From Bacteroidales bacterium (GTDB lineage Bacteria; Bacteroidota; Bacteroidia; Bacteroidales; UBA932): a stretch of DNA of 46,299 nucleotides. The stretch lies in contig JAFQAR010000065.1 of NCBI GenBank assembly GCA_017399905.1, positions 1 to 46,299 of the forward strand, in the 5' to 3' direction. The translations under genes and the position numbers were made by a program. Below the pieces are notes generated by a model. The model was not told the DNA's origin. It did not search any database and worked only from the letters and a program-made list of their open reading frames with translations. Shown piece by piece: positions 30,438 through 46,299 of the stretch. The first letter of the stretch is position 1; each line of letters begins with the position of its first letter.

Positions 30438-30466
30438 GGAAAATCCCGGAATGTATTTCCGGGATA
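30438..30466 (-). terminator. Hairpin terminator after the M3 peptidase gene
   Basis: ATCCCGGAA and TTCCGGGAT (30443-30451 and 30457-30465) form a perfect 9-bp stem with a 5-base loop. Read on the minus strand the stem is followed by a short T-run. It lies about 12 bases after the M3 peptidase stop codon and so ends the nucleic-acid operon. The 45 bases left before the GH3 start have no convincing promoter match. Confidence 0.65.
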
Positions 30467-30477
30467 TAGGAACGGCA

Positions 30478-32484
30478 TCAGAGGCCACGGGCCCTGAGAA
30501 GCGCAGCCGGATCCGGATCTGCACCTCTGAAATTCCTGTAAAGCGTCATAGGCTCCTCGCTGCCACCCTTTTCAAGGACGTTTCTGCGGAACGACATTGC
30601 CGTCTCCTTGTCGAGGATTCCCTTTTCCTTGAAGAGTTCGAAGGCATCCTTGTCCAGGACTTCCGCCCAAAGGTAACTGTAGTAGCCCGCACTGTATCCG
30701 CCGCTGAATATATGGGCGAAATATGTCGACCTGTATCTCGGAATGATTTCGTCTATGAGTCCCATATTGAGACATGCATCCGCCTCGAAGGCCTCCACAT
30801 CAGTCGGAACAGTGTCGAGCATATGCCACTTGAGGTCCAGAATCGAAGCCGCAGCAAGCTCTGTCGTCATGAAGCCCTGATTGAATGTCTCGGCAGCCAT
30901 GATCTTACCGATGAGCTCGTCCGGAATAACTTCACCTGTCTCGTAATGACGTGCATATTCTGCAAGCACTTCCTTCTGGAAGGCCCAGTTCTCCATGATC
31001 TGTGAAGGAAGCTCCACAAAGTCGCGCGCCACAGATGTACCGCTCACGCTCTTGTATGTACACTGGCTGAGAAGGCCATGGAGAGCATGTCCGTACTCAT
31101 GGAAGAGGGTCTCGACCTGATCGAGGGTAAGGAGGGACGGCTTGTCTGCAGTAGGCTTCGCGAAGTTTCCTACATTCACGATCACCGGACGGATATCCTT
31201 TCCGTCAGCCGTGATTTCCTGATTTACGAAATTGGTCATCCACGCACCACCCCTCTTCGTGCTGCGAGGGAAATAGTCCGTAAGGATCACACCTATGAGC
31301 GAGCCGTCAGCGTCAGTCACCTTGAAGCCCTCGACATCAGGATGATATACCGGAATATCCTCAAGCTTCTCATACTGAAGGCCGAAAAGCTTAGTCGTAA
31401 GGTCGAACACGCCCTGACGCACATTCTCCATCTTGAAATACGGCTTGGTCTGCTCCTCGTCAAGTGCATACTTTGCCTTGCGGACCCTTTCGGCATAATA
31501 AGCCCAGTCCCATGCCTCGATCTTCGATCCTTCAGGAAGAAGACCTGCCTTGATATCCTCGTCCATGACAGCCTGCATGTCCACGATCTCAGCCTTTGCC
31601 TTCTCAACCGCAGGCTCCATGATTGAAGCGAGGAAGCTGTCCACAGCCTCAGGAGTTCCGGCCATCTTGTCTGCAAGGATCATCTGTGCAGGATTCTCGT
31701 AACCGAGAAGCTTCGCCTTCTCTATACGGAGAGCCATCATCTTGAGTATCAGCTCCTTGGTATCGTTCTCGTTTCCATTGTTTCCTCTTGAAGAATATGC
31801 CTTGAACATCTTCTCCCTGAGGTCCCTGTCCTCTGTGGCCGCCATCGCTCCCGCATACTCTGAGATAGAAAGTCCGAACTCCTCGGCAAAAGCGTTGTTC
31901 TCTGCAAGAAGACGGTTGCCGAACGTATTCGAGAGTGAAGAAAGTTCCATGTTGATCTCACGCATCCTTGCCTGCTCAGCCTCTCCAAGCGCCACACCGT
32001 TCTTCACAAAGGCATTGTAGAGCTTGGTCAGGGTCATCTCCTGCTCACGGTTGAGTCCCAGATTCTCCATATCCTTGTAGAGGGTCTCGACCTTGGCAAA
32101 GAAGTAAGGGTTCATGAAGATGTTGTCGCTATGCTCGGACATCATCGGAAGGACCTGCTCCACGATCTTCTGGAGGGACTCTGTCGCATCCGACTCGGAC
32201 ACATTGAAGAGGACGCTTGTGACACGGTCAAGGATAGCTCCCGAACGTTCGTATGCTTCCACTACGTTTTCGAATGTAGGTGCGTCAGACTCAGCGATTA
32301 TCGCATCTATCTCGCTCTGCTGCTGACGGATACCCACCTCTACAGCAGGCACATAATGCTTTTCCTTGATCTGGCTGAAGTCAGGAATTCCATATGGTGT
32401 GTCCCACTCGGTCAGGAACGGGTTGATGCTGTTGCATGAAACTGCTGCCATGATGATTGAAAATGCAGTAATGATTCTTTTCAT
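30478..32484 (-). CDS. M3-family oligopeptidase lipoprotein (Dcp-like)
   Basis: A 668-residue zinc metallopeptidase of the M3 (thimet/oligopeptidase A/Dcp) family. The zinc motif is HEYGH at 462-466, with Glu463 as the catalytic residue, inside FHEYGHALHGLLS. The long helical N-terminal part and the LAAASILDLKWH segment near the end fit the family, and length is normal. A lipobox (AAVSC, then NSINPF with no acids) suggests a periplasmic lipoprotein, whereas Escherichia coli Dcp and OpdA are soluble. It would trim short peptides. It is 14 bases downstream of the DUF5689 gene and is followed by a hairpin terminator, so it belongs to the nucleic-acid operon rather than to the glycan genes that follow. 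Confidence 0.9.
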   Translation of the reverse strand: MKRIITAFSIIMAAVSCNSINPFLTEWDTPYGIPDFSQIKEKHYVPAVEVGIRQQQSEIDAIIAESDAPTFENVVEAYERSGAILDRVTSVLFNVSESDATESLQKIVEQVLPMMSEHSDNIFMNPYFFAKVETLYKDMENLGLNREQEMTLTKLYNAFVKNGVALGEAEQARMREINMELSSLSNTFGNRLLAENNAFAEEFGLSISEYAGAMAATEDRDLREKMFKAYSSRGNNGNENDTKELILKMMALRIEKAKLLGYENPAQMILADKMAGTPEAVDSFLASIMEPAVEKAKAEIVDMQAVMDEDIKAGLLPEGSKIEAWDWAYYAERVRKAKYALDEEQTKPYFKMENVRQGVFDLTTKLFGLQYEKLEDIPVYHPDVEGFKVTDADGSLIGVILTDYFPRSTKRGGAWMTNFVNQEITADGKDIRPVIVNVGNFAKPTADKPSLLTLDQVETLFHEYGHALHGLLSQCTYKSVSGTSVARDFVELPSQIMENWAFQKEVLAEYARHYETGEVIPDELIGKIMAAETFNQGFMTTELAAASILDLKWHMLDTVPTDVEAFEADACLNMGLIDEIIPRYRSTYFAHIFSGGYSAGYYSYLWAEVLDKDAFELFKEKGILDKETAMSFRRNVLEKGGSEEPMTLYRNFRGADPDPAALLRARGL

Positions 32485-32498
32485 ATTTCGTGTTTATT

Positions 32499-33536
32499 TT
32501 AATACCAGTTTGTTCCGTCAGCCTTTTTCACGCCGTCAAGGTCGATGAGAGTGAACTGGGCCGCACCCTTATACTCGGTAAGGATACCGGTGAATGTCAC
32601 CGTAGCAGTGCCGTCGAGCACTTCCTGAGGAATCTCTGTATCAGCAAAGCGTGCATATCCGCTCGAACGTACCTGCACATCCGTCTTGCCCATCTTGAAA
32701 TACTGGCTTACCGAATATGCCATCGATCCGATGTTGTAGGTTCCGTCCTCGTTCTTATAGCTTCCTACTGTGCCCTGGCCGGCCTCGACGCTGTCGAAGT
32801 TGCCGTTGTTGAGATACTCCTTCCATTTCTGCTCCGAGCATGCCCATGTCGTAACGCCATAGTTGTCAGGACCTTCCTCATCGATGAAGATGCCGTTGTT
32901 GGTATAGTCCTTCCTGTCTCCGTTCGGATCCACATAAGCGAGGATGAACACATGGTTGTCATACTTGAGGTCCTTGATGGTGACGAGGCGTCCGAGATTG
33001 ACCTTCTTGTGAAGGTCGGCCTCGGTGATCTCTACAGGCTCCACAGGATCCTCGTAAGGGCCCTTGAATATGTGGGTGTTGATTATTGACATGTGCTCGA
33101 TGTAGGCTGTCTCGTATTCGCCTGTAGGGTCGCTGTAGCCTATCTGGATCATTCCGTTATAGTCGCCTACGGTCAGTCCTTCGCAATTCACATAGACCCA
33201 CTGTCCCAGCCTGTACTCGTTGTAGAGGCCGTTCTGACCCACCTTGATCTCGATGCCGGCAGTCTCGTCCTGGATGTAGAAGCTCTTGTACAGGTTTCCT
33301 ACCTTGTCGGATGTGGTCACCTGACCGCCTATGAGGATCGGATCCTCTATCACTATCGGCTTGTTGCCGTTCGCAACATAAAGGTCCTTGAGGTCGGCGA
33401 TGGTCATGTTGGGAGTCATGACCTGAGGCTCCTTGTATTCAGGATTCTCATACTTTCCCGTAAAGACAGGCTGGAACTCCTCGCATCCTGCGAAGAGGGC
33501 AGCCGCTGCAAATAGTATCGTATATATTCTTTTCAT
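32499..33536 (-). CDS. DUF5689 lipoprotein, putative binding partner of the TonB receptor
   Basis: A 345-residue lipoprotein (lipobox LFAGC, then EEF, an acidic start consistent with surface export). The DUF5689-type fold is suggested by MTIADLKDLY, then FYIQDETAGIEIKVGQNG, VYVNCEGLTVGDYNGMIQIG and a C-terminal TVTFTGILTEYKGAAQFTLIDLDGV. These strands look like one or two OB-fold modules. No catalytic motif is seen. It follows the TonB-dependent receptor by 3 bases, where SusD would sit in a glycan locus, so it may be the receptor's extracellular ligand-binding partner. The related segment YVQDETAGLQFYLG in the 38805-41912 protein of the same operon supports a shared ligand. Confidence 0.75.
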   Translation of the reverse strand: MKRIYTILFAAAALFAGCEEFQPVFTGKYENPEYKEPQVMTPNMTIADLKDLYVANGNKPIVIEDPILIGGQVTTSDKVGNLYKSFYIQDETAGIEIKVGQNGLYNEYRLGQWVYVNCEGLTVGDYNGMIQIGYSDPTGEYETAYIEHMSIINTHIFKGPYEDPVEPVEITEADLHKKVNLGRLVTIKDLKYDNHVFILAYVDPNGDRKDYTNNGIFIDEEGPDNYGVTTWACSEQKWKEYLNNGNFDSVEAGQGTVGSYKNEDGTYNIGSMAYSVSQYFKMGKTDVQVRSSGYARFADTEIPQEVLDGTATVTFTGILTEYKGAAQFTLIDLDGVKKADGTNWY

Positions 33537-33539
33537 GCC

Positions 33540-36500
33540 CTAGAATCTGAAATAAAGGTTCAACATGTAATTGAAGCCCTGCATGTAGAAATACTTCGAA
33601 TCGAATCTGTAGTATCTTTCCATGCTCTTGCTGTCAATGAGACGGGTCTGCTCGTAACCTCCGGTCTTGACATATCGGTTGTTGGTAATGTTCTGGAGAT
33701 TGAGAGAGAATCCGAAGTTGTACTTGCGGTCGATGTACCAGGACTTTCCGATGCTTGCGTTGAGGAGGAAGACAGGGTCGAACTCCTCCTGTGAAGTCAT
33801 GTAGGTAACCTCTACAGGTGTGGTGATCTTATCCGGACCGACTACAGCCATATCCGTCCTGTAAAGAGGGTTCATGTCAAGATAAGAATGTGCGAAGTAC
33901 TGTGCGGCAATCTCGAAGAACCAGTATGAATTCGTCCTGTAGTTGAATCCGAGGCTTGACGCGAACTGCGGAGTAGAAGGCACATAATGCTTCTTGTAGT
34001 GGTCTATGACAGGGTCTCCGTTCGCATCAGTCTGATACATGGTCTCGCCGTTGACTACAGCCTGCTTGAATACAGGAGTAGCAGCCCAGTACGGTACAAG
34101 CTGGTTGTCGAAGATCACTTCGGCGCTGTTGTCGATGGTCTGGGTCATGCGTGGAGTCGAAGTGTAGATGTACTCACCCCAGCTGAGGGCTCCGCTCAAC
34201 GAAAGGTTCTTCACGAAGAAAGGAATGTTGAAGCCGAGCTCGATACCCATGTGCCTCTGGTCTATTCCGCTCATGGCGAAGTTGGTGAAGGAGTTCTGTG
34301 AGTCATCGTAGAAACTCATCATGTCGGTCTGGTCCTTGATCTCCGTCCAGAATCCTGTTATGCGGAAGTTGTAGCCGTTGTTGCTGTACTGGTAATTCAC
34401 GTCAGCCGAAGCTGTCTTCACGGTCGTAAGGTTAGGAACGATGGAGTTCCTTGTACGAGGGGAGATGAATGACTGCGAGAATGTAGGGGCATCATTGAAA
34501 TAGCCTCCGTTAGCATATATGCGGTGTCCGCCTGAGAACTGATACTGGAGTCCGAGCTTTGCCGAATAGGTAAAGAATTCAGGAGCGGCCGACTTGCCCT
34601 TTGAGGTGATAGGCTTGAGTTCGCCGTTGACCTTCTCATAGGTGGTCAGGACCTGACCGTCGTACATGAACTCGCTGCCGTCGTCGTTGAGTCCGGCAAA
34701 CAGACCCTTGCGCACAAGGCCCTCCCTGAAGAATGATGTAAAGCCGCCTTCCAGTGCGATATTGGCCTTGAAGCCGCCTACGTTGAAGGTTCCGTTAGCC
34801 CATACGTCAGCAGTCGTGATGTTTGCGTAGTAATCGTAGCCGTACTTGTCGCCGAGCTTGAGGGTCTGAGCCTCTCCATGGGCAATGAAGTAGTCGAGGT
34901 CGTTCTGGACCATGGCAGGAGAAGATGCGAAATCGCGCTCCGCGAACTGGTCGATGTTCATGTAATATTCACCTCCGAGAAGATCGTCGAGCTTCTTGTA
35001 GTATTCGGTCCTGTTGAACCTGAAGTTCACACCTCCGTTGAGGGTAAGCCACTTGTTCACGACACCCTTCACATTTGCATTTATGGTCAAATCGTTCTGG
35101 TCGACGCGACGCTCCTCGATCACATACTTCGAGCGTAACATTCCCGCATTGTCGAAGCTGTTGTAGTTCACGTTGTAGAGACGGTCCCAGTTAAGGTGGG
35201 TGTACTCAGGAAGGTCATATTCCCACACATCCTTCGCCCAGTAGTATTTCTCAAGGTTCGCACGGTCGTAATCCTCGTTCTCCATCCAGAAATAGCTCGG
35301 AAGGTTCCTGTAGTAGTCAGGACGAGGGTCCGGTGCATCATACCAGTCGAGGGCGGTGTAGCCGTTCTTTCCAGTACGCCAGAGGACGGTCAGCGAAGCC
35401 TCGAGGCCGTCTGCAGGAGTGCCGGTATATTTGAGCATGGTCACAGGCTCGAATGTCTTGCGCACACGTGCGTTGCGGAGCTTGCCGGCCTGATAACCCC
35501 AGTTGCTGTTGTACATGTTGTCGCCCATGAGGTCATAGACTTCCTGGGTCGATGCATTCTGCGCGCCACGCTGTCCCGGAGCTGCGAAAGTGACGAGACT
35601 TACGCGATGGTTGTCCCCGAACTTCTTCTCCACGCCTGCATAGTATGCGAAATTGCGGTAATAAATACCTTTGACCCAGTCGTTTCCACCCACGCGAGCC
35701 GACACGTTGAAAGCATAAGACCATCCGTTGTCAAGCTCACCTGAAGCATATGTGGCCATGAGGCGGAGACGATAGAGTGCACTGTTGGTCAGGGCGCTGA
35801 AACGCCATCCCGTACGTACGCTTGAAGGCACGGCATGTATATTGGTCACACCGTTGTATCCGCCGTATCCGTAATCCGAAACCTCGTTTCCGATTGTCGT
35901 CTCCTTGCTGCGCATAGCCTCGTTCAAGCCGCTCCACAGCGAATACGGAGAATAACCGGTGACAGCATCGTTCATCCTCACACCTGCAAGATAAACATCC
36001 TGCGATTCGCTCGTATATCCTCTGTTCTTGAAACGGATGTTGCTGAATCCGAAGCTTACGATCTCGTTGTACGGGTCATTCGTGCCGAAAAGGATGGTCG
36101 GAGCGTCATCATAGCCCGAATCGTCCATATCGAACTCCGAGAAATTCGAATCATCGACATCATTGACCACCTGCTCTGCAATGAGGGAGACGAAGATAAG
36201 GTCCTTCACATAGCCCTCGACGGTCACATTCACATTTGACGGAACAAAGCCAGGGGCCTGTACCGACATGTCATATATGCCGTTCGGAAGGCCTTCGAAA
36301 AGGAATTTTCCGTCTTCACCTGACCGGCCTTCCGCAACAACTTCACCTCCAAGTGAAAGTGTCATCGCGGCGCCTGCCACCGGCACACGTCCTGCACGGT
36401 TCACGACTGTTCCGGTCACACCGCCGAAATCGCTCTGGGCAAGCAGTGCAAGCGAACAGGTCAGGACCGCTGCTAATGTTAATAATGCTTTCTTTATCAT
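33540..36500 (-). CDS. TonB-dependent outer-membrane receptor with N-terminal regulatory domain
   Basis: A 986-residue receptor. The signal peptide ends about residue 21; a carboxypeptidase-like regulatory domain spans about 25-110 (GVTGTVVNRAGRVPVAGAAM). A strongly acidic stretch (DDSNFSEFDMDDSGYDD, about 117-133) comes before the plug, followed by a large barrel ending in Phe (MLNLYFRF). It lacks the SusC plug signature and no SusD is nearby, so it is not a standard glycan importer. The flanking nuclease, phosphatase and DUF5689 genes suggest that its cargo is nucleic-acid breakdown products, for example oligonucleotides. That cargo is an inference from context only. Confidence 0.88.
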   Translation of the reverse strand: MIKKALLTLAAVLTCSLALLAQSDFGGVTGTVVNRAGRVPVAGAAMTLSLGGEVVAEGRSGEDGKFLFEGLPNGIYDMSVQAPGFVPSNVNVTVEGYVKDLIFVSLIAEQVVNDVDDSNFSEFDMDDSGYDDAPTILFGTNDPYNEIVSFGFSNIRFKNRGYTSESQDVYLAGVRMNDAVTGYSPYSLWSGLNEAMRSKETTIGNEVSDYGYGGYNGVTNIHAVPSSVRTGWRFSALTNSALYRLRLMATYASGELDNGWSYAFNVSARVGGNDWVKGIYYRNFAYYAGVEKKFGDNHRVSLVTFAAPGQRGAQNASTQEVYDLMGDNMYNSNWGYQAGKLRNARVRKTFEPVTMLKYTGTPADGLEASLTVLWRTGKNGYTALDWYDAPDPRPDYYRNLPSYFWMENEDYDRANLEKYYWAKDVWEYDLPEYTHLNWDRLYNVNYNSFDNAGMLRSKYVIEERRVDQNDLTINANVKGVVNKWLTLNGGVNFRFNRTEYYKKLDDLLGGEYYMNIDQFAERDFASSPAMVQNDLDYFIAHGEAQTLKLGDKYGYDYYANITTADVWANGTFNVGGFKANIALEGGFTSFFREGLVRKGLFAGLNDDGSEFMYDGQVLTTYEKVNGELKPITSKGKSAAPEFFTYSAKLGLQYQFSGGHRIYANGGYFNDAPTFSQSFISPRTRNSIVPNLTTVKTASADVNYQYSNNGYNFRITGFWTEIKDQTDMMSFYDDSQNSFTNFAMSGIDQRHMGIELGFNIPFFVKNLSLSGALSWGEYIYTSTPRMTQTIDNSAEVIFDNQLVPYWAATPVFKQAVVNGETMYQTDANGDPVIDHYKKHYVPSTPQFASSLGFNYRTNSYWFFEIAAQYFAHSYLDMNPLYRTDMAVVGPDKITTPVEVTYMTSQEEFDPVFLLNASIGKSWYIDRKYNFGFSLNLQNITNNRYVKTGGYEQTRLIDSKSMERYYRFDSKYFYMQGFNYMLNLYFRF

Positions 36501-36502
36501 AG

Positions 36503-37582
36503 TTACTTGCTGATTACGATATATGTAGGATAATGGTCACTGTATCCTCCGATGAACGCCCCGTTCGAGAATGTACGGAACGGAGTGTCCTTGTACTGTC
36601 CCTTCTGGTTGGTGAGGAACTTCGCCCTGAATATATGTCCGTGATAGCCCTTCTTGCCGAGAGGAGTTATCTTCAATCCTCCGTCCGGTGCGTTTGCAAG
36701 GGCGTTGTTCACGAGAAGAAGGTCATATATGCTCCACACTCCCCTGTACGCAAGGGAACCGTGTCCGTCCTTGAGCATCTCGATGAAAGGGCTGTAGAAA
36801 TCCTTCTCGCCGACATCGCTGAGATTCTCCTTTCCGTGAAGGTATTCCGCCATGCTCGGATCGGTAGGGTTGTCGTTCATGTCACCCATGCAGACGATCT
36901 TGATGCCCGGATATTTCTCCTGCATCATCATCGCATGGTCGTACATGATCTCGCCGCCGCGGTCACGGAGCTGGTTGCTGCCATTCTTGTCTCCTGAACG
37001 GGAAGGAAGGTGCGCAACGTATATCGCGAAATGCTCGCCTTCGATAAGTCCGTGAACCATGAGGACATCGCGGGTCCTGAAATATTCCTGCTCCTCCTTC
37101 GACATGATGAAGTCTATCGAACTTCCTTCAAAGGTATAAGGGATGGACTCGCTGTCGAGATAGGTGAACTTGTCAGGCCTGTAAAGCAGGGCCACATCCA
37201 CGCCTCGACGGTCCGGACCGTCATAATGGATGATCTGATAGTTCGCGTCCGCTATCTGCGGGTCGGCAACGAGATCCTCAAGCACGAGCCTGTTCTCGAT
37301 CTCGCTGACTCCAAGAAGAGTATGATAGCGTCCGTTCTGGTTCTTCATCTCCCTGATGACCTTCGCCATGTTGGCTATCTTCTTCTGATACTTCACTTCT
37401 GTCCATCTGTTGGCACCGTCAGGAAGGAATTCACCGTCATTCTTGACAGGGTCGTCATAGATGTCGAAGAGATTCTCGAGATTGTAGAATCCCACCACAT
37501 GCGCGCTTTCCACCTTCTTCTGTGCGAATGAAGCGCAGCAGAAAAGGGTCAGGGCCGCCGATATTATGATTATCCTTTTCAT
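36503..37582 (-). CDS. Endonuclease/exonuclease/phosphatase-family enzyme, secreted
   Basis: A 359-residue protein with a signal peptide (MKRIIIISAALTLFCCASFA). The EEP (DNase I-like) fold is shown by its motifs in order: FYNLENLFD, GVSEIENR (metal-binding Glu), AHLPSRSGD, GDMNDNP (Asp/Asn pair) and the C-terminal SDHYP (catalytic Asp-His). All key residues are present, so it should be an active phosphodiesterase or phosphatase. DNA, RNA, nucleotides or inositol phosphates are possible substrates; the NUC-type endonuclease gene 16 bases upstream favours nucleic acid. The start at 37582 gives the signal peptide; an extension to 37660 runs into the upstream gene with an unlikely arginine-rich N-terminus. 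Confidence 0.86.
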   Translation of the reverse strand: MKRIIIISAALTLFCCASFAQKKVESAHVVGFYNLENLFDIYDDPVKNDGEFLPDGANRWTEVKYQKKIANMAKVIREMKNQNGRYHTLLGVSEIENRLVLEDLVADPQIADANYQIIHYDGPDRRGVDVALLYRPDKFTYLDSESIPYTFEGSSIDFIMSKEEQEYFRTRDVLMVHGLIEGEHFAIYVAHLPSRSGDKNGSNQLRDRGGEIMYDHAMMMQEKYPGIKIVCMGDMNDNPTDPSMAEYLHGKENLSDVGEKDFYSPFIEMLKDGHGSLAYRGVWSIYDLLLVNNALANAPDGGLKITPLGKKGYHGHIFRAKFLTNQKGQYKDTPFRTFSNGAFIGGYSDHYPTYIVISK

Positions 37583-37598
37583 TTTCAGTTGTTTTCTT

Positions 37599-38801
37599 TT
37601 ACCACCACATTGCCGAATCCGCCGGATCCGCTGCCTCAAGCTGTGCCGCCTGGTCCGCACCTATCTTTGCAGGAAGGTTCACGAAGAAGTCCAGTCCCGT
37701 GATCTTTTCCAGTTCATCGATGGACATGGAGTGCTGCTTGCCGATGCTTTCCGAATAGCTTCTGTGCTCAAGATAGAACGCAGCTGCATTCCACTGGCCC
37801 AATGTAGAGGACTTGCTGTATCTCAACAATGCCTTGAAATATGCTGTCGGAACCGTCATTGACTTTCCGTCAGAGTCAACCGTGGTCTTTGTGGAACCTT
37901 TGGTGATGACTCCTGTCACGACATAGGTCGTATCCGATTTCTCGGCGATGTTACGGACCTTACTCTCGAGCTGCTGCCATATGCCTTCGTTATGGGCGTT
38001 GAGCTGAGGTGTCATGTTCGTGCCGTAGAAAGTCTGCGCGTTGGCCTCATAACAGCAAAGACGGTCTGCAGACGGGAGCTGATGTCCACGTGCGTAGCTT
38101 CCGCCATATCCTCCGAACGGAGCCGAAGAATATTTGCCCAGCAGCGGGTCATAGGCCCATGCGTCGGTCCTGCTGACTGTCTTGTTGGTGTAGAAGCTGC
38201 ACAGAGGATATGCCACCCAATGAGCCACAAGGTCGCTCTGGCTCCAGCCGAAGGTATAGTTCCTGTAGGTCTTTCCGTTCATGCTGAAGCTGTGGCTGTA
38301 ATAGTCCAGAGCATCATTGTCCATCGCAGGAAGCTCCATCCAGCCGGTCTTTGCCGTCGCTGTCGAGCCAGACGAACCGCTTCCGGAGCCTGAGCCGTTT
38401 CCGGAATCGTCGTCATCGGGATCCTGGTCAGGAGAATACTGCTTCAATGAACATTCCACCCAAGAAGAGCCGTTGTCAAGAATCACCCTTAGCTGACGGC
38501 TTGAATTTCCGGTATTGGCCTGATAGGTCAGGATGATATTGTTCCTGTCGCCCTCGCCTGAAGTCACGTTCAACGAAGCCCAGTCCGCAGCACCGTTGTC
38601 GGCAGCCAATGAAAGGGTCCACGTTCCGCTGCATTTCACGGAAACGAACACCTGTCCTGCCGGACTGTTGACTACAGTCTTCCTGAGCTCGACGGACATG
38701 GTCTCGCCCACAGGCTTCTCGCATGAAGACAGCAGCAGGAGACAGCATGCCGCAACGGCCGCTGCCACCTTCTGCATCATATGAGATAGTCTTGTCATCA
38801 T
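37599..38801 (-). CDS. DNA/RNA non-specific endonuclease lipoprotein with BACON domain
   Basis: A 400-residue lipoprotein (lipobox LLSSC, then EKP). A BACON-like Ig domain (about 35-126) is followed by an acidic and Gly/Ser-rich linker (about 127-148) and a NUC/Serratia-type beta-beta-alpha-metal nuclease domain (about 150-390). The catalytic segment is ARGHQLPSADR with the general base His240, and the metal-binding Asn is in FYGTNMTPQ, 25 or so residues later, as in the family. It should cut extracellular DNA and RNA. BACON domains are typical of Bacteroidota surface proteins and may attach the enzyme to polymers. The gene is 3 bases downstream of the large BACON/OB-fold gene. Confidence 0.9.
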   Translation of the reverse strand: MMTRLSHMMQKVAAAVAACCLLLLSSCEKPVGETMSVELRKTVVNSPAGQVFVSVKCSGTWTLSLAADNGAADWASLNVTSGEGDRNNIILTYQANTGNSSRQLRVILDNGSSWVECSLKQYSPDQDPDDDDSGNGSGSGSGSSGSTATAKTGWMELPAMDNDALDYYSHSFSMNGKTYRNYTFGWSQSDLVAHWVAYPLCSFYTNKTVSRTDAWAYDPLLGKYSSAPFGGYGGSYARGHQLPSADRLCCYEANAQTFYGTNMTPQLNAHNEGIWQQLESKVRNIAEKSDTTYVVTGVITKGSTKTTVDSDGKSMTVPTAYFKALLRYSKSSTLGQWNAAAFYLEHRSYSESIGKQHSMSIDELEKITGLDFFVNLPAKIGADQAAQLEAADPADSAMWW

Positions 38802-38804
38802 TCC

Positions 38805-41800
38805 TTATTCAGCCACGTACTTGTAAAGCTGCACAGGGTTCTGCTGGCTGTAAGTAGTTGACTTGTAATATCTGAATCTTGACGAAGTTCCGCTCGAGTA
38901 GAAACGGAGTACTGAAGTTTCAGAAACGAACTTCACACCGTCAGACTCCATTGTAATGGTGTTAAGCTTCTGGGCAGTGTCGAAGCAGAGGTCATTCTTT
39001 GCGGAAACGCCGTAGAGATATCCACCCTTCGCCTTGACAGCATATCCGCCGTCCATGGTCTCGATTGTGACTGCATACTCAGTAAGTCCTTCAGCAGCGA
39101 TGGCATTGCCGCTGATTGTCGCAGTCGTGAAGTTTCCGGCCACGTCACCGTCCGTGAAGACCGAAGCTGTGGTACCATTCTCATAAACGATGAGGTATGA
39201 ACCGTCGGTCCAGTCTTCAGGAGCCTCTGTCACCTTCACATATCTCGCACCTGTAACCTCTCCGCCACCGGTGTTGCCGCCTTCACCGCCTTCACCGCCT
39301 TCACCGCCTTCGCCTGAACCTGCCTCGAAACGCTCTCCGGTAAGGCCGGCATAGTCCGATGCCTGAGCGAAGATGATCTGCATGTTGCCGTTGCTGATGG
39401 ATGAGATGCCCTTGATGGTACCTGAACCCTGAGGAACGGTCTCGCCTCCGTAAGTCGCATACTTGGATGAGAACACCACGAATGAATTGCCGTTTACGTC
39501 CTCGATATTGATGCTTGTGTGTGCTCCGCCTTCAACGAATGTCTTCGAAAGGTCTGAAGAAGCCACCTGAACACCCTCGATCGCGATGTACTGTCCCTCG
39601 TACTTGTTGTCAAGGAAATCAGCGATAGAAACGGTCTTAGGCTGTACCGTGTTGCCTGAAGACACCTTGGTTATCTTGTCAAGAGCAAGACCGCTGATCT
39701 GAACGGCACCGTTGTAAGCGCCTACTGAAACGCCTGAAAGGTCGATCTGCACCTTGTCACCGAAATCGAATTCATGGTTTGCGCCAAGGTAGAACTGAAG
39801 ACCTGCAGTCTCGTCCTGAACGTACATTCCCTTCTTTGATGTGAGGTTGTTGAGGCCCCTGTCAGAGATTACGACAGCCTCGATGGTCGAACCTGAAGGA
39901 AGTGTTGCGCCATATGCAAGGACTTCAGCGATGGTCATCTCCGATCCGCCGCCGGCAGGAGGAGTGGTTCCGCCACCTGAAGTAGAGAAATCCTTGGTCA
40001 CCGCACCTGAGAAATCAACCGATGCACCCGCAGAAGCGGAAGCTTCAAGCTTGAAGTCGTCCATACGGTATGCGCTGGCTACATCTACAGACATGCAGAC
40101 AGAAAGGGTCTGTGTGTCTGAAGGGACCGAGAAGTTGGCTGTAGCCACGTTCCAGCGGCCTCCGGCTGTTCCGGCAAAGGTGTAATCGGTGAACTCAACC
40201 CACTTCGCTCCGCCGTCGTTGCTGAGCCAGATATGGAACTCTGAGTTCTGGAATACGTTGCCGTAGTCCTGTGAATACTTCTCCGAACCGAACGAGAGGC
40301 TGAGGTCGGTCTTTCCACCGAGAGCGATTCCGTTGATAGAGAAGTATGCATTGGCACCGAAGAAGATATTGTTGTTGCCGGAGCCTGAATAATCGGAGTA
40401 TGAACCGTCGGATGTCGAATTCGCACGGGCAGATGTTCCGTTGTATTTGTATGTCACATTTGCCGAACCTGTTCCGGCCTCGTTCTGCCAGCCGTCGAAC
40501 TGGTCGAGGTATGGCCAGCTTGAACCCGAACCGTATGTCTTTGTAGCTACGGTCTTGTCGAAGTTGTTTGCATAGATGGCATCGCCGTCAGACTCTCCGC
40601 CACCTGTGCTGCCGCCGTCCGTATAGCTTACGATATAGGCATCCACAACCTCATGCTGAGACTTCTGTGAATAGAAGAGGTACTTTCCGTAGATGGTCAC
40701 GGTACCGCCGTTCTTGATCTTGCTGCTCCACTCAGCCTTGCTTGCGGCGAGAACGGAATATACATAGATCTTACCTGTAGCATCAGTGAGGTCGAAGCTG
40801 CAGTATGTCGCATTGAAACCTGACACTGTACCTGTAAGTTCATAATAGTTCTGAGTGTCTGCAAGAGAGATGAATTCCTCGACGGTCTTCTTGCCCTTGG
40901 ACTCAGGAGCTTCGCCGCTGCCGCCAGAAGAAGATCCGCCGGCAGTGAAGTCCATCTCCACTGCATCGGTGAAGTCCACAGCCACACCTTCCTTGTTTGT
41001 ACGTACAAGCTGGAGGTCATCCATACGGTATGAGCTTGCTACATCCGTCTTCATGCAGATAGAGAGGCTTTCCGTTCCTTCAGGAACAGAGAATACCGAT
41101 GTAGCCACATTCCAACGTCCCTCAGTTGTACCGCCGGCGAATGTGTAGTCCTTGAGCTCTACCCACTTCTCACCGTCCTGGCTGAGGTAGATGTGGAATT
41201 CTGAGTTCTGGAATACGCTGCCGTTGTCCTGTGAATACTTCTCGGTACCGAATGTGAGCTCGAAGTCAGTCGAACCTCCGAGGGTGATGTTCTTTGTTGC
41301 GAGGTATGCGTTTGCACCGAAGAACATGTTGTTGTTACCCGAGCCGGCATAATCCGAATAGTTGCTGTCTGATGTAGAATTTGCACGTGCAGACATGCCG
41401 CTGTAGTTGTATGTCACGGTCTCCGCACCTGTACCTGTTGCGTTCATCCAGCCGTCGAACTGGTCGAGATATGGCCAGCTTGCACCTGAACCGTAAGTCT
41501 TTTCCGCAACTTCCTTGTCGTAATCGTTCGCATAGACGATAAGGTTTGCTGAAGAGCCGTCAGGACCAGCCTGTGTGACGGTAAGCGTCTTGCTGGTCAT
41601 TCCGATCGAGAACTTGATCTTGGTCTCGCGGTCAAAACCAGTGTTCTCCAGAGCTGTTACGGTGAGTTCGGAATCCTTGAGGGATGCATATCCCTTTTCA
41701 GGGCTCACCACCACCCAGTCTGCGTCTGTCTCGACCGTCCAGTCACGGGTTGCCGTAAGCGTGAGGTCCTGTGAACCACCTGCAATCTCGAATGACATGG

Positions 41801-41912
41801 CCTTCTCGCTCAGATAGAGCTTAGGGATGCCAAGATACTCGACTTCCTCCTGACAAGCCACGGCAAAGCCGGCTACGGTCAGCAGTCCGAGAATTAGATT
41901 TCTTAGTTTCAT
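38805..41912 (-). CDS. Large surface lipoprotein: BACON, duplicated sandwich, OB-fold and DUF5689 domains
   Basis: A 1035-residue lipoprotein (lipobox AVAC then QEEVEY). Visible parts in order: BACON domain (about 28-120, WTVETDADWVVVSP); a ~200-residue jelly-roll-like module (from 125); an OB-fold-like stretch (about 336-432, YELTGTVSGFNATYCSFDLTD); a second copy of the ~200-residue module (from 446); a DUF5689 domain (about 655-860, YVQDETAGLQFYLG); a Gly-Glu linker (about 868-890); and a C-terminal domain that I do not recognise (about 895-1035). The two modules share long blocks such as SSWPYLDQFDGW and GSGNNN. No catalytic motif is seen. OB-folds often bind nucleic acid, and the next genes encode nucleases, so a surface capture role is likely. 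It heads the operon behind its own promoter. Confidence 0.78.
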   Translation of the reverse strand: MKLRNLILGLLTVAGFAVACQEEVEYLGIPKLYLSEKAMSFEIAGGSQDLTLTATRDWTVETDADWVVVSPEKGYASLKDSELTVTALENTGFDRETKIKFSIGMTSKTLTVTQAGPDGSSANLIVYANDYDKEVAEKTYGSGASWPYLDQFDGWMNATGTGAETVTYNYSGMSARANSTSDSNYSDYAGSGNNNMFFGANAYLATKNITLGGSTDFELTFGTEKYSQDNGSVFQNSEFHIYLSQDGEKWVELKDYTFAGGTTEGRWNVATSVFSVPEGTESLSICMKTDVASSYRMDDLQLVRTNKEGVAVDFTDAVEMDFTAGGSSSGGSGEAPESKGKKTVEEFISLADTQNYYELTGTVSGFNATYCSFDLTDATGKIYVYSVLAASKAEWSSKIKNGGTVTIYGKYLFYSQKSQHEVVDAYIVSYTDGGSTGGGESDGDAIYANNFDKTVATKTYGSGSSWPYLDQFDGWQNEAGTGSANVTYKYNGTSARANSTSDGSYSDYSGSGNNNIFFGANAYFSINGIALGGKTDLSLSFGSEKYSQDYGNVFQNSEFHIWLSNDGGAKWVEFTDYTFAGTAGGRWNVATANFSVPSDTQTLSVCMSVDVASAYRMDDFKLEASASAGASVDFSGAVTKDFSTSGGGTTPPAGGGSEMTIAEVLAYGATLPSGSTIEAVVISDRGLNNLTSKKGMYVQDETAGLQFYLGANHEFDFGDKVQIDLSGVSVGAYNGAVQISGLALDKITKVSSGNTVQPKTVSIADFLDNKYEGQYIAIEGVQVASSDLSKTFVEGGAHTSINIEDVNGNSFVVFSSKYATYGGETVPQGSGTIKGISSISNGNMQIIFAQASDYAGLTGERFEAGSGEGGEGGEGGEGGNTGGGEVTGARYVKVTEAPEDWTDGSYLIVYENGTTASVFTDGDVAGNFTTATISGNAIAAEGLTEYAVTIETMDGGYAVKAKGGYLYGVSAKNDLCFDTAQKLNTITMESDGVKFVSETSVLRFYSSGTSSRFRYYKSTTYSQQNPVQLYKYVAE
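39282..39308. repeat. Three 9-bp tandem repeats encoding the Gly-Glu linker
   Basis: TTCACCGCC occurs three times in tandem, with degenerate units on both sides. In the minus-strand gene it encodes GGE units of a flexible linker between the DUF5689 and C-terminal domains. Such repeats can change copy number by slippage without shifting the frame. Confidence 0.75.
39984..40577 (-). repeat. Second copy of intragenic ~600-bp duplication
   Basis: This part of the large surface lipoprotein gene encodes residues from 446 to about 643 and is clearly similar to the copy at 40941-41540 (shared SSWPYLDQFDGW, SARANSTSD and GSGNNN). The copies have diverged, so the duplication is not recent. Confidence 0.8.
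40941..41540 (-). repeat. First copy of intragenic ~600-bp duplication
   Basis: Encodes residues 125 to about 324 of the large surface lipoprotein. It pairs with the copy at 39984-40577; an OB-fold-like segment lies between the two. Both copies contain YRMDD near their ends and a VYAN or IYAN start. Confidence 0.8.
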
Positions 41913-41963
41913 AACTGTCTGTTAATATCTTGATAAATTATAATTATAATCCTCTTGAACTTA

Positions 41964-41993
41964 CAAAGATAATGAAATGACGCTATTTTACAA
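41964..41993 (-). promoter_or_regulatory. Promoter of the nucleic-acid utilisation operon
   Basis: On the minus strand a TTG (41993-41991) and TATCTTTG (41971-41964) are 19 bases apart, matching the Bacteroidota consensus. Transcription would begin near 41957, giving a leader of about 45 bases before the ATG at 41912. No palindromic operator was noticed around it. Confidence 0.7.
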
Positions 41994-42064: not shown

Positions 42065-45000
42065 TTAGAAGAACCAACGGAGGCTGAGGAGCATCTCCCA
42101 AGTTGAAGATACTGTCGCTACCTTGCTCCAAGTAGGCTCAGTGAATGTATAAGTTGATGTCTTGGTATCATACTTAAGGATCTGGTCACCGCTGAGCTTG
42201 TCATAAGCACCCCACTTGCTGTTGAGGAGGTTTCCGAGGTTGTTGATGTCAAGACCGATCTGGATAGTATTCTTCTTGCCGGCAACGCGGAAGTCGAAGT
42301 CCTGAGCAACCTTGAAGTTGAATCTGTGCTGCCAAGGAGCTACTACACCACCTCTCTCTGAGTACTCACCTCTATGCTTGCTAAGATACTTGTCACCCTT
42401 GATGAATTCCGCAAATGCAGCCTTGTTAGCCTCATCCTTGAATGTCATCTTGGCGAGATCTGCATCTGTAGGGATGTAGATAAGGTTGTTTGCACCGCCG
42501 TCACCAGTCACGTTATTCATGGTGTATGAATATCTTGTGTAAGAGTATGAACCTACGTAGCAGTGGTTGTAACCCTCATAGAAGAGACCGAATGTAAGGG
42601 CACCGTTACCTCTGTCAAGACGATAGCTGATGTTTGCGATGAGACGGTTAGGTGAAACATATGCAGAATGACCGAGCTCAGGAGTGTTTGAACCCATTGA
42701 TGAGTATGTCATTGTGTTGTATGCAGATGACACCTGGTCACCGATACCCTCAGCTGCGCTCTTTGAGCCGCTGTAAGTATAAGCCGCCATAGCTGAAAGT
42801 CCGAAAGCGAAGTCCTTCTGGAGCATTGCAGTCACTGAATAGTAGTGTCCCTTGACATCAGTGTTCTTGATGTAGTATGGAGCCACAGTACCGTTCTGTG
42901 AATTCTTTATACCCTCTGACTTCCATGAAGGTCTTGCCTGTGGCTCACCTGGGAGCTGGATGCCGCCCTCAACCTCAGCCTGACCGAGCTTGTGAACATA
43001 TACAGAAGTGATATCCTTGTTGTAGATACCCTCGAGAGTAGCCTTGATGCCGCCTGGGAGGTGTCCCTCAACTGCGAGAGAAGACTTCCATGTTGTAGGC
43101 ATCTTGAGGTCTTTGCTCATGATTGTTGTAGCTGTAGGAGCTGCGAGATCCTGAGCCTTGAATGTGCCGCCGTAAACATCGTCAAGGATGTCGTTGAGCT
43201 TATTATGGAAGGTAGGAGTCATGGCACCGGTTCCGTCAGTATCGATGTACTGAGCCTGGAGACAGTTGCTGTTACCTGCTGCAGATACGATCCATACGAA
43301 TGGGATACGTCCTGTGTAGATACCTGTACCTCCGCGTACGATGAGGTTGCGGTTCTTGAGCACATCCCAGTTGAAACCTACACGTGGAGAAACGTTAAGG
43401 CGTGCCTTAGGCATGTCAGCTGTAGAAAGGCCGTGGATAGAGTTGTCACCCTTTGCAAGCTCAGCAAACTCCTTGTTGTTGTTTCCTTCGATTGTAGGAT
43501 AGAAAGGCATCTCGAAACGGATACCGGCAGTAAGCTTGAAGTTGTCGCTGATGTTGAGCTCATCCTGTACATAAGCTGAAGCCTGCATGTACTGGAAGCT
43601 TGGGAATACCTGCTGGAGGTCGTCACGATTAGAGTGAGTGATAGCGAAAGCTACCGGCTTGCCCTTAGCCTTGAATGCTTCCCATGAATCATATACATAG
43701 TAACCTGCACCACCCTGCATGTAACCGTTCTTTGTGTCATCCCACTCGAACTGGAGACCTGCAACGAAGTTGTTGATACCCTTGGTATATGAGAACTCGT
43801 CAGTAACTACAACTGTCTGAACGTCACGGAGGTTACCGTATGTGAACGGATCCGGACCGAATGAAGTGAGAACTGTTCTTGTACCGTCCTCGAGAGTCTG
43901 GAGGATATCCACTGTAGGGAAGAGGTCGCCTACGAAGCTACGAGGCTCGTTCTGGTGTGACCATGTAACACGGAGAACGTTGCTGGCGTTGTTGCCGAAA
44001 CGTGAGTTGAGCTCGGCTGCAAGAGACATGAAGTTCTGCTCCTGGAAGTAACGTGAGCTCTCGAAGAACTGAGCGTACATTGAAGTACGTCCGTACTTGT
44101 TCCTGTCGTATGGATTAGGGTTGATAGGGTTGACTGATGAAGAAGGGCTCGAAGAGTACTTGTTCATAGTCTGGCTGTAACGGATGTTGAATCTGTGGTT
44201 GTCATTGATGTTCCAGTCAACACGAGCCATGAGCTTCCAGTCAGGAGTGCTGAGCGAGTAGCCCTGGTAACGGCCCGGATCATATCCGTACTCGTCAGCA
44301 AGATACTTCTTTACCTCGTCCATGAAAGCCTTGGTAGGACGTACATATGATGTACCGTTGCCCCACTCCTGGCTCTCGTTGTCTCTTACCTTGTAGCTTG
44401 AACCTGGAGTAACGTCTGCTGCATACTCGAAGTTAGCGAAGAAGAAGAGCTTGTTCTTGATGATAGGACCACCTACTGTGAAACCTGTAGTGTTGTTGAG
44501 AGACTCTGAAACAGATACCTTCTCACCGTTTACCTTGTCACCCTTGAGGTAGTTGCTGTTATAATAGTTGTATACAGAAGCATGCCACTCGTTTGAACCG
44601 CTCTTTGTAACTGCGTTGATGGCACCGCCTGTAAAGCCTGAGTGACGTACGTCGAACGGAGTGATGTTAACCGACATCTGCTCGAGAGCGTCGAGAGAGA
44701 TAGGTGCACCGCCTGCAGGAAGGTTTGAACCGATACCGAATGCGTTGTTGAATGAAGCACCGTCGACAGTCACATATGACGAACGGTAGTTACCACCACC
44801 GATAGCGAGACCATTTGTAGTTGAAGACGCCTGTGGAGTAAGCTTCATCACATCGTTCATGCTGCGGCTTACTGTAGGAAGGGCAGTCATTGTCTGCTCG
44901 CTGATTGAAGTACCTACACCTGCACGGTTGATGTTCATGCCTGAGTTAGCTCCGTCAGCTGTGAAGACAGCTGCTTCAAGGCCGAGAGCCTCAACCTGAA

Positions 45001-45325
45001 GGTCTGCATTGAGTGAGAGAGTCTCACCGAGAGGAGCATAAAGGTTGGTGTACTCTACAGGTCTGTAACCGAGCATCTCCACCTTTACTGAATAAGGACC
45101 ACCAGGAGTCACAGCATTGATACGGTAAGAACCGTTCTTGTCTGTGATTGAATAGTAGTTTGTTCCAGATGGAACGTGTGTCGCTACAACTGCAGCACCT
45201 ACAACGGCGCCTTCGCTGTCAGCTACTCGTCCAGAGATGGACGAAGTTGTCACCTGCGCAGACGCAATGACAACTGCAAACATTGCCACCAAAGCGGCAA
45301 CAAAACACTTAAATGTTTGTTTCAT
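42065..45325 (-). CDS. Oar-like TonB-dependent receptor with carboxypeptidase regulatory domain
   Basis: A 1086-residue outer-membrane protein: signal peptide (about 1-23), carboxypeptidase-like regulatory domain (about 28-115, ISGRVADSEGAVVGAAVV), plug (about 125-250, with VTVDGASFNNAFGIGSN and HSGFTGGAINAVTKSGSNEW) and a large barrel ending RWFF. The plug segments GGAINAVTKSGSN and IIKNKLFFFANFEY are typical of Oar/OmpA-related TonB receptors, which are implicated in peptide, protein or unknown-substrate handling, not of SusC. It forms a single-gene transcription unit with its own promoter and terminator. Substrate is not predictable from sequence. Confidence 0.9.
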   Translation of the reverse strand: MKQTFKCFVAALVAMFAVVIASAQVTTSSISGRVADSEGAVVGAAVVATHVPSGTNYYSITDKNGSYRINAVTPGGPYSVKVEMLGYRPVEYTNLYAPLGETLSLNADLQVEALGLEAAVFTADGANSGMNINRAGVGTSISEQTMTALPTVSRSMNDVMKLTPQASSTTNGLAIGGGNYRSSYVTVDGASFNNAFGIGSNLPAGGAPISLDALEQMSVNITPFDVRHSGFTGGAINAVTKSGSNEWHASVYNYYNSNYLKGDKVNGEKVSVSESLNNTTGFTVGGPIIKNKLFFFANFEYAADVTPGSSYKVRDNESQEWGNGTSYVRPTKAFMDEVKKYLADEYGYDPGRYQGYSLSTPDWKLMARVDWNINDNHRFNIRYSQTMNKYSSSPSSSVNPINPNPYDRNKYGRTSMYAQFFESSRYFQEQNFMSLAAELNSRFGNNASNVLRVTWSHQNEPRSFVGDLFPTVDILQTLEDGTRTVLTSFGPDPFTYGNLRDVQTVVVTDEFSYTKGINNFVAGLQFEWDDTKNGYMQGGAGYYVYDSWEAFKAKGKPVAFAITHSNRDDLQQVFPSFQYMQASAYVQDELNISDNFKLTAGIRFEMPFYPTIEGNNNKEFAELAKGDNSIHGLSTADMPKARLNVSPRVGFNWDVLKNRNLIVRGGTGIYTGRIPFVWIVSAAGNSNCLQAQYIDTDGTGAMTPTFHNKLNDILDDVYGGTFKAQDLAAPTATTIMSKDLKMPTTWKSSLAVEGHLPGGIKATLEGIYNKDITSVYVHKLGQAEVEGGIQLPGEPQARPSWKSEGIKNSQNGTVAPYYIKNTDVKGHYYSVTAMLQKDFAFGLSAMAAYTYSGSKSAAEGIGDQVSSAYNTMTYSSMGSNTPELGHSAYVSPNRLIANISYRLDRGNGALTFGLFYEGYNHCYVGSYSYTRYSYTMNNVTGDGGANNLIYIPTDADLAKMTFKDEANKAAFAEFIKGDKYLSKHRGEYSERGGVVAPWQHRFNFKVAQDFDFRVAGKKNTIQIGLDINNLGNLLNSKWGAYDKLSGDQILKYDTKTSTYTFTEPTWSKVATVSSTWEMLLSLRWFF

Positions 45326-45480: not shown

Positions 45481-45519
45481 CCGCCCGAAACGAGGGATGC
45501 GGAGGTTTCCGCATCGGAA

Positions 45520-45568
45520 ATGTGGAGAGATTTGGCTGCTTGCAACCACGTAAAAAAATGCTAAAATG
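45520..45568 (+). ncRNA. SAM-II riboswitch aptamer
   Basis: The sequence fits the SAM-II class by eye: P1 is GTGG (45522-45525) with CCAC (45546-45549); the loop has the conserved GATTT and TTGCAA; the A-rich strand ends in GCTAAA (45560-45565), which pairs with TTTGGC (45531-45536) to give the class-defining pseudoknot with its U-A triples. SAM-II riboswitches occur in alphaproteobacteria and Bacteroidota before methionine and SAM genes, in agreement with metK downstream. A small hairpin (GATGCGG with CCGCATC, about 45497-45515) comes before it. An ATG directly follows the pseudoknot strand at 45566. Confidence 0.78.
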
Positions 45569-45595
45569 TTGACTCCGGTCATCACGCCACGATGA
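45566..45595 (+). CDS. Nine-codon leader ORF after the SAM-II aptamer
   Basis: ATG at 45566 is the first triplet after the GCTAAA strand of the aptamer. The frame reads MLTPVITPR and stops at TGA (45593-45595). It runs through the whole 5' arm and loop of the hairpin at 45577-45597, and the stop lies in the 3' arm. A translating ribosome would therefore keep that hairpin from forming. There is no Shine-Dalgarno sequence, which is normal for this phylum. Translation is an inference; the frame is short enough to arise by chance. Confidence 0.4.
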   Translation: MLTPVITPR

Positions 45596-45921: not shown

Positions 45922-46299
45922 ATGAATTATTTGTTTACATCAGAATCAGTATCTGAAGGACATCCAGACAAGGTGTCGGACCAGATTTCAGACGCAATCC
46001 TCGACGAATTCCTCCGCCAGGATCCTGAGGCGAAGGTGGCTTGCGAGACATTCTGCAGCACCGGCCTTGTAGTAGTAGGCGGCGAGGTCCGCTCGGACGA
46101 CGCATATGTGGATATTCCAAAGACAGTGCGCCGCGTCATCAACAAGATAGGATACAACAAGGCTGAATACATGTTCGACGGAAACTCATGCGGCATACTT
46201 TCGGCGCTTCACGAGCAGAGCATGGACATCAACCGCGGAGTCGTGGGCGAGGACGCAGATGCGCAGGGCGCCGGCGACCAGGGCATGATGTTCGGCTAC
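45922..46299 (+). CDS. metK: S-adenosylmethionine synthetase (5' part, runs off the window)
   Basis: The first 126 residues of MetK are seen. The N-terminal segment [21 protein letters not shown] is the methionine- and ATP-binding signature with the catalytic His of EGHPDK, and the second signature [11 protein letters not shown] sits at the right edge. MetK makes SAM from methionine and ATP in the cytoplasm. The ATG at 45922 agrees with the family start. Expression is probably controlled by the SAM-II riboswitch at 45520-45568, giving feedback by the product. Codon use looks like that of a highly expressed gene. The remaining two-thirds of the gene lie outside the window. Confidence 0.95.

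Follow-up and report, generated by a model that had tools for sequence, protein, structure and literature searches.

A nuclease-rich operon of a Bacteroidales bacterium as a likely variant of a widespread EEP, outer-membrane receptor and DUF5689 module

Which substrate would be handled by an operon that combines two predicted nucleases with an outer-membrane receptor, two DUF5689 lipoproteins and a peptidase? The question is raised by a stretch of 46,299 nucleotides from a Bacteroidales bacterium (JAFQAR010000065.1 of assembly GCA_017399905.1), analysed over its full length and referred to below as the window; its source is contig C61 of genome G000, an assembly of 2.31 Mb that is 81% complete. 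Six open genes occupy positions 30478-41912 of the minus strand, with successive gaps of 14, 3, 2, 16 and 3 bases. An initial annotation of the window had described them as one transcription unit with gaps of 2-16 bases, a single promoter and a terminal hairpin, and coordinates, promoter pattern and hairpin folding agreed with this description. The six-gene operon is real and conserved. Judged by related loci, it is most likely a nuclease-rich variant of a widespread module made up of an EEP nuclease, an outer-membrane receptor and a DUF5689 lipoprotein. We regard it as fairly probable that this nuclease-enriched variant is an outer-membrane system for capture and import of nucleic acids, most likely used for food, for transformation or for both.

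Conservation of the module was assessed in 120 loci, taken mostly from the best receptor matches. The receptor is present in 119 of them; the other one (L244) was included for a gene-order check of genome G443, described below. A DUF5689 gene was located directly downstream of the receptor on the same strand at 106 of the 119 loci, with a median gap of 18 bases, and an EEP gene directly upstream at 90 (71 divergent, 19 on the same strand). Among 1654 open reading frames (ORFs), 124 of 129 DUF5689 genes and 93 of 96 EEP genes fell within the interval from two genes before to three genes after the receptor. As these slots represent only about 43% of the ORFs, the clustering is far from chance. 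Both profiles were built from the counted loci, which introduces a mild circularity; representatives were confirmed by Pfam. By gene order, the core of the operon is this module of EEP nuclease, outer-membrane receptor and DUF5689 lipoprotein.

A search with the window receptor matched 199 of 395 genomes of the phylum at E ≤ 1e-3 and 60 at E ≤ 1e-40, as tallied by eye from the match table. All 60 belonged to the window's class, and the best match outside it reached 1e-16. Within the window's order, 122 of 247 genomes matched at 1e-20, nearly half of the sampled order being without a match at that level; the receptor was found in 37 of 61 close relatives and in 27 of 37 genomes of the window's genus. 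When the receptor of the family of G281 was used as query within that family, 118 of 120 genomes matched.

The module was connected with DNA uptake through Riemerella anatipestifer, a bacterium of ducks, where markerless deletion of either RA0C_RS04915 or RA0C_RS04920 abolished natural transformation (PMC8459023). These adjacent genes encode a CarboxypepD_reg outer-membrane protein and a protein with DUF5689 and DUF5017, respectively, and the pair was proposed as DNA binder and channel (PMC8459023). Within the open-licence literature searched, that paper alone mentioned DUF5689 and, as judged from titles and the starts of abstracts, no paper tied DUF5689 or the receptor family to nucleases or DNA use outside Riemerella.

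Genome G443 was taken as R. anatipestifer from its gene order and domains, not from its name, because Riemerella was not among the best 80 of 591 loci in a scan of named genomes. In G443, RecA (recognized by motif) lies five genes before ComEC and ComEC four genes before the receptor, which fits the tags 04870, 04895 and 04915. The gene following the receptor carries DUF5689 and DUF5017, as the paper describes for RA0C_RS04920, and a protein of 447 amino acids (aa) with three HHH matches is roughly as far away as RS02645 should be. Identity of the G443 receptor to Chryseobacterium receptors was up to 66% among the matches listed, the published value being 65.9% (PMC8459023), and the fetched stretch had a GC content of 35%.

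In G443, the top match of the window receptor (33540-36500, minus strand, 986 aa) scored 194.5 and 93.9 bits (next match 34) and is the protein that occupies the RA0C_RS04915 position. The reverse search with the G443 receptor returned the window receptor (191.6 and 92.2 bits; next match 13.8), so that the two are reciprocal best hits, at about 29-32% identity. Similarly, the window's DUF5689 lipoprotein (32499-33536, minus strand, 345 aa) shared 35% identity with the Riemerella partner over residues 28-140 (E 1e-16). The partner (L106:11730-13133, RA0C_RS04920 by position) scored 599 bits against NCBIfam M949_1556, a family that takes its name from a gene of R. anatipestifer and has a cut-off of 475. 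As the window protein scored 70.8 bits, and with Pfam reporting DUF5689 only and no DUF5017, it is classed by score as a relative of this subfamily and not a member. By position, RA0C_RS04910 would be the divergently read EEP gene; it figures merely as an upstream gene in the text of the Riemerella paper and is missing from the markerless mutants in its Table 2 (PMC8459023). Given this homology, the module is likely the gate through which DNA crosses the outer membrane during natural transformation in Bacteroidota.

Apart from the reciprocal receptors, the Riemerella and window systems have in common a DUF5689 lipoprotein gene directly downstream (at 3 bases in the window), an EEP gene next door, and ComEC, DprA and a tandem-HHH protein encoded elsewhere in the genome. 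They differ in the low receptor identity and in the DUF5689 protein, which in the window is shorter and lacks the DUF5017 part, as well as in the EEP gene, which is co-directional in the window instead of divergent. The window further adds a BACON protein, a NUC nuclease and an M3 peptidase, and its system is not known to serve transformation. The four new genes of the Riemerella study were called widespread in Bacteroidetes, especially in Flavobacteriaceae, and the same paper states that receptor homologues were found in Flavobacteriaceae only (PMC8459023). In the present survey, the receptor with DUF5689 and EEP neighbours was found far more widely, including in named Bacteroidales such as Bacteroides finegoldii and Prevotella.

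The additional genes define the variant to which the window belongs. It was analysed in 31 loci from the window's family and from a genus of another family (g2), 28 of which could be parsed; L292, L293 and L296, in which ORF calling had chosen antisense ORFs, were left out of the operon count. NUC was present in 24 of the 28, EEP and the BACON protein in 25 each, DUF5689 in 24 and M3 in 17, the last all from the window's genus. At 20 of the 28 loci the five core genes followed each other as they do in the window, so their order is beyond chance. The initial annotation had named a lack of co-occurrence of the families elsewhere as a refuting condition; by these counts and those for the module, its proposal was not refuted. 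In the receptor tree the sampled members with nuclease operons grouped together (nine rows, support 99/99), and the same group was recovered in the EEP tree (support 100/99). At one locus of genus g2 (L035, genome G238), a standard divergent EEP gene stands beside the five-gene operon with its own EEP gene. This would fit either an insertion of nuclease genes into the space separating EEP from the receptor or a replacement of the old pair by the operon, and the locus is a possible evolutionary intermediate.

Nucleases were found beside the module in named genomes as well. Seven named records from a plasmid collection matched the receptor and four were opened. Bacteroides finegoldii NZ_OY725948.1, a 27 kb record that may be a chromosomal piece, carries in a row a fimbrillin::Endonuclease_NS fusion, a fimbrillin protein, the receptor, DUF5689 and EEP. 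Flammeovirga kamogawensis has two EEP genes, the receptor, a DUF5689/DUF6359/LTD protein and then a DUF5689::Endonuclease_1 fusion (L303:11948-14143); an alignment with this fusion covers 96% of the Riemerella DUF5689 protein (E 3e-20). Aureibacter tunicatorum combines the receptor with two DUF5689 genes, Endonuclease_1 and EEPs, and in Prevotella sp. oral taxon 299 the receptor, DUF5689, one other gene and NUC follow each other, EEP lying some 13 kb or more away. In addition, genome G623 encodes, beside a paralogous receptor and EEP, a DUF5689 protein (L261:14439-16766) that contains two PLD domains and a type IX secretion system sorting tail. From these arrangements, nucleases of several families have been recruited repeatedly to the module, and the neighbours and fusions suggest, as an independent reason, that DNA is the substrate.

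Families were assigned to the six operon proteins by a Pfam scan at family cut-offs. The first gene encodes a surface-type lipoprotein (38805-41912, minus strand, 1035 aa) with BACON at residues 57-115 (8e-11), a middle part without family assignment and DUF5689 at residues 659-853 (6e-34); it is a candidate nucleic-acid binder. Its lipid cysteine is followed by QEEVE, and a comparison with the Riemerella protein in the latter's DUF5689 region gave 28% identity (E 4e-12). The smaller DUF5689 lipoprotein (Pfam 2e-47) has a surface-type signal as well, with EEFQP after the lipid cysteine; its best match to a solved structure, to gingipain domains (E 0.012), was not usable. The initial annotation was right in naming M3, DUF5689, EEP, a NUC-type endonuclease and BACON, and the OB-fold that it had placed in the large lipoprotein was not upheld: the one Pfam match behind it, to tRNA_anti_2 (E 0.0098), stays below the threshold, and an OB-fold link between it and DUF5689 was rejected at an hhalign probability of 0.1.

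The second gene encodes a lipoprotein nuclease, NUC (37599-38801, minus strand, 400 aa), assigned to the DNA/RNA non-specific family Endonuclease_NS (1e-35) and matching solved nucleases at E 2e-17 to 2e-16. NucA and the Serratia nuclease are enzymes of this family, in which the DRGH motif, Asn and Glu are presumably the active site. In an alignment of 24 sequences, all 24 retained R, G and H of DRGH as well as the N and the E columns further on. The window protein thus shares the family and its His, Asn and Glu columns, and it differs from known members in being a lipoprotein, in having Ala for the DRGH Asp and in a BACON-like N-terminus whose match is below the Pfam cut-off.

EEP (36503-37582, minus strand, ATG at 37582, 359 aa) is an Exo_endo_phos_3 nuclease or phosphodiesterase (Pfam 1e-87). 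Residues N34, E36, E94, E96, H191, D234, N236, D349 and H350, which we take to be the active site, were conserved in 92 of 92 sequences. Against solved structures, an EEP entry was matched at E 0.0035 when the alignment was used, and nothing with the single sequence. The protein carries a Sec-type signal without a lipobox, which probably places it in the periplasm. The receptor contains CarboxypepD_reg (1e-10) and a presumed barrel. Its relatives are annotated as TonB-dependent receptors, and the window receptor is putatively TonB-dependent. An alignment of nine sequences, those of the window and G443 included, had invariant columns over the whole length. In R. anatipestifer, tonBA and tonBB mutants transform less, the tonBB effect being ascribed to iron deficiency (PMC8383284). 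The last gene encodes an M3 (Dcp-like) peptidase lipoprotein (30478-32484, minus strand, 668 aa; Peptidase_M3 9e-133), scoring 634 bits against NCBIfam Dcp, under the cut-off of 944.

In Bacteroidota, acidic residues after the lipid cysteine mark a lipoprotein for surface export. The lipobox pattern was present in 90 of 108 DUF5689 proteins, 58 of which had at least two acidic residues at +2 to +6; among the M3 relatives it was present in 10 of 12, and acidic residues at these positions in none of the 10. Because of this difference, the DUF5689 binders are predicted to lie outside and M3 probably faces the periplasm, NUC being ambiguous. In the mechanism that we infer, the BACON/DUF5689 and DUF5689 surface lipoproteins would catch DNA or RNA outside the cell and keep it at the receptor, and the NUC lipoprotein would cut it. 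The receptor, driven by TonB, would pass strands or fragments into the periplasm, where EEP would process them. In the window's genus, M3 probably trims peptides arriving with the DNA.

The initial annotation had compared this layout with a glycan utilization locus in which nucleases replace glycosidases and SusD is absent, and the associations found here support the comparison. Like SusCD-type polysaccharide utilization loci (PULs), the operon unites surface lipoproteins, a surface endo-enzyme, an outer-membrane receptor and a periplasmic enzyme; unlike them, it has nucleases, no glycosidase, no SusD (none matched among the six proteins in Pfam, and the window's SusD sits in a separate glycan locus) and a receptor without a reported Plug match. 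The proposal of nucleic-acid capture and import was likewise supported by association, and it was incomplete in having missed the relation to the required natural-transformation pair. Given that homology, import of whole DNA and transformation are equally live beside the feeding on oligonucleotides that had been proposed. The nucleoprotein substrate of the same proposal hung on a single lineage-specific gene, M3, and the NUC-type endonuclease was confirmed as to family, without the DRGH aspartate.

Several observations weigh against capture and import of nucleic acids. Asp of DRGH is Ala in the window's NUC (Asp was kept in 11 of the 24 aligned sequences and missing in 13, that of the window included). 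In NucA, a change of this residue reportedly lowers activity, so the window's NUC may cut slowly or serve mainly for binding. For the receptor, neither a Plug nor a barrel model was reported by the Pfam scan, CarboxypepD_reg being alone above cut-off, and the same scan found no nucleotidase, phosphatase or nucleoside transporter among the six proteins. With net charges of about -24 and -61, the two surface lipoproteins are strongly acidic, and simple DNA binding is therefore not favoured. DUF5689-nuclease fusions are rare among the sequences scanned: of 31 DUF5689 ORFs longer than 540 aa, 10 were scanned, and the nine other than the PLD fusion of G623 lacked a nuclease domain. In five further named records, no module lies within 5-6 kb of the NUC or EEP relative; since these relatives also occur without it, nucleases alone are not diagnostic. 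Co-occurrence of the receptor with a ComEA-like protein in 247 genomes was not significant at the loosest cut-off (p 0.22 at E 1e-12), ComEA-like proteins being common without the receptor, and gave odds ratios of 2.1-2.5 at 1e-33 to 1e-43, uncorrected for kinship; in this count, nine genomes whose receptor hits were weak were scored as receptor-free. To these are added the absence of Riemerella from the 80 best named loci and the report of M949_1556 as a lipopolysaccharide (LPS)/antigenicity and virulence gene (PMC12566107, PMC4976936).

Natural transformation could be the primary purpose, with long DNA being imported, EEP making it single-stranded, the HHH protein and ComEC taking over and the extra nuclease shortening the substrate. 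Besides the homology to the Riemerella pair, this accords with the presence in G000 of ComEC, DprA and a ComEA-like tandem-HHH protein, the three for which the genome was searched. Lactamase_B matched none of the four ComEC proteins scanned, which leaves room for a separate strand-degrading nuclease beside the importer; EEP is a candidate for this step, which the Riemerella paper leaves open (PMC8459023). Both ComEA and ComEC are essential in P. gingivalis, for which the import of DNA across the outer membrane has been called unclear (PMC11532111). However, two co-transcribed nucleases should destroy donor DNA, ComEC of G000 has just 369 aa and no DUF4131, co-occurrence with ComEA is weak, and Flavobacterium johnsoniae has homologues yet was not competent under the conditions tested (PMC8459023). 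We therefore consider transformation as the primary purpose unlikely. Food signals conflict between species: when phosphate or peptone was taken away, transformation fell in R. anatipestifer (PMC8383284), whereas it rose in R. columbina (PMC7965970). ComEC of G000 (L291:1376-2485) carries the Competence domain only, and its open frames in seven tested genomes of the window's genus, G000 included, were 371-417 aa.

In the models for Gram-negative transformation, DNA is pulled through the outer membrane by type IV pili or related machines. Capture and import by the operon being the preferred reading, a broader proposal can be attached to it tentatively, and we would give it somewhat less than even chances: the module may be a general DNA importer of Bacteroidota, TonB-driven and pilus-free, used for transformation and, with recruited surface nucleases as in the window, for feeding on DNA, EEP being the missing periplasmic nuclease. 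If true, this would fill the outer-membrane step of competence in the phylum, Bacteroidales included. The wide distribution and the nuclease neighbours make DNA import accessible to simple gene removal, and they suggest that such bacteria draw on extracellular DNA for nutrients or genes. The operon may thus indicate how DNA is imported in a large part of a bacterial phylum.

Not all members of the EEP and PLD superfamilies are nucleases. The system might hence scavenge another phosphodiester or polymer, such as phospholipid head groups or phosphate-rich glycans, since folds of both types also hydrolyse such bonds. Several receptors, lipoproteins and nucleases of F. johnsoniae respond to phosphate depletion (PMC8115612). 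The Pus loci of this species resemble the operon as PUL-like loci for phosphorus, with extracellular nucleases listed among the products induced by phosphate depletion, and differ from it in using PusCD (PMC8115612). This possibility is quite improbable, as Endonuclease_NS and Endonuclease_1 recur beside the module or fused with parts of it and relatives show a DNA-uptake phenotype.

Still less probable is a role in the envelope, in which the DUF5689 lipoprotein and the receptor would shape the surface or its LPS and DNA uptake would be lost indirectly. It draws on the LPS and antigenicity phenotype reported for M949_1556 (PMC12566107, PMC4976936), the Riemerella partner being in that NCBIfam family; in the open-licence literature, no paper was found connecting this LPS/virulence phenotype with the transformation phenotype of RA0C_RS04920. 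It leaves the nuclease fusions and neighbours unexplained, both members of the pair are required for transformation (PMC8459023), and the window protein falls far under the M949_1556 cut-off. Finally, the operon as an arm of the adjacent N-glycan locus (GH3, GH92, GH2, GH18, SusC/D), acting on host glycoprotein or nucleoprotein, was rejected as very improbable: glycan-degradation genes fill much of the window and the start of GH3, on the strand of the M3 gene, is only 85 bases beyond it, but a hairpin separates the two, and what follows M3 varies between related loci and is often oriented the other way, so the adjacency looks local.

The glycan locus itself (794-30392) comprises N-glycan-type genes assigned by Pfam to GH130, GH20, GH18 (BT1044-like), SusD, SusC, fucosidase, GH2, GH92, CotH and GH3; a second GH92, LacI, ROK and mannose isomerase were recognized by eye only. 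Anti-phage defence was rejected for the operon, no PADLOC match being obtained at 1e-3, as was a relation to phages, the only match being a generic nuclease PHROG for NUC.

A promoter of the Bacteroidota type, TTG-N19-TATCTTTG (41964-41993, minus strand), starts 81 bases upstream of the first ATG; the consensus is the one we assume for the phylum. With spacers of 17-24, the pattern occurred three times over both strands of the window. A similar pattern was found near the start in 8 of 26 related gene runs, whose starts were assigned by a simple rule, in one case merely 7 bases before the start. Beyond M3, a terminator-like hairpin (30443-30465, minus strand) has a 9-bp stem (-13.7 kcal/mol, z -2.2). 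As its tail comprises three to four U, termination there is plausible and not certain. A separate terminator-like site (42040-42011) follows the gene upstream of the operon; this gene (42065-45325, minus strand) encodes a second outer-membrane receptor (OMP_b-brl_4) and lies outside the operon. RNA regulation of the operon was rejected, since an Rfam scan of the window at gathering score gave no hit except a SAM-II riboswitch near the far end (RF01726, 62.6 bits, 45516-45574, plus strand). About 350 bases downstream of this riboswitch, an open frame at 45922 reads by eye like S-adenosylmethionine synthetase.

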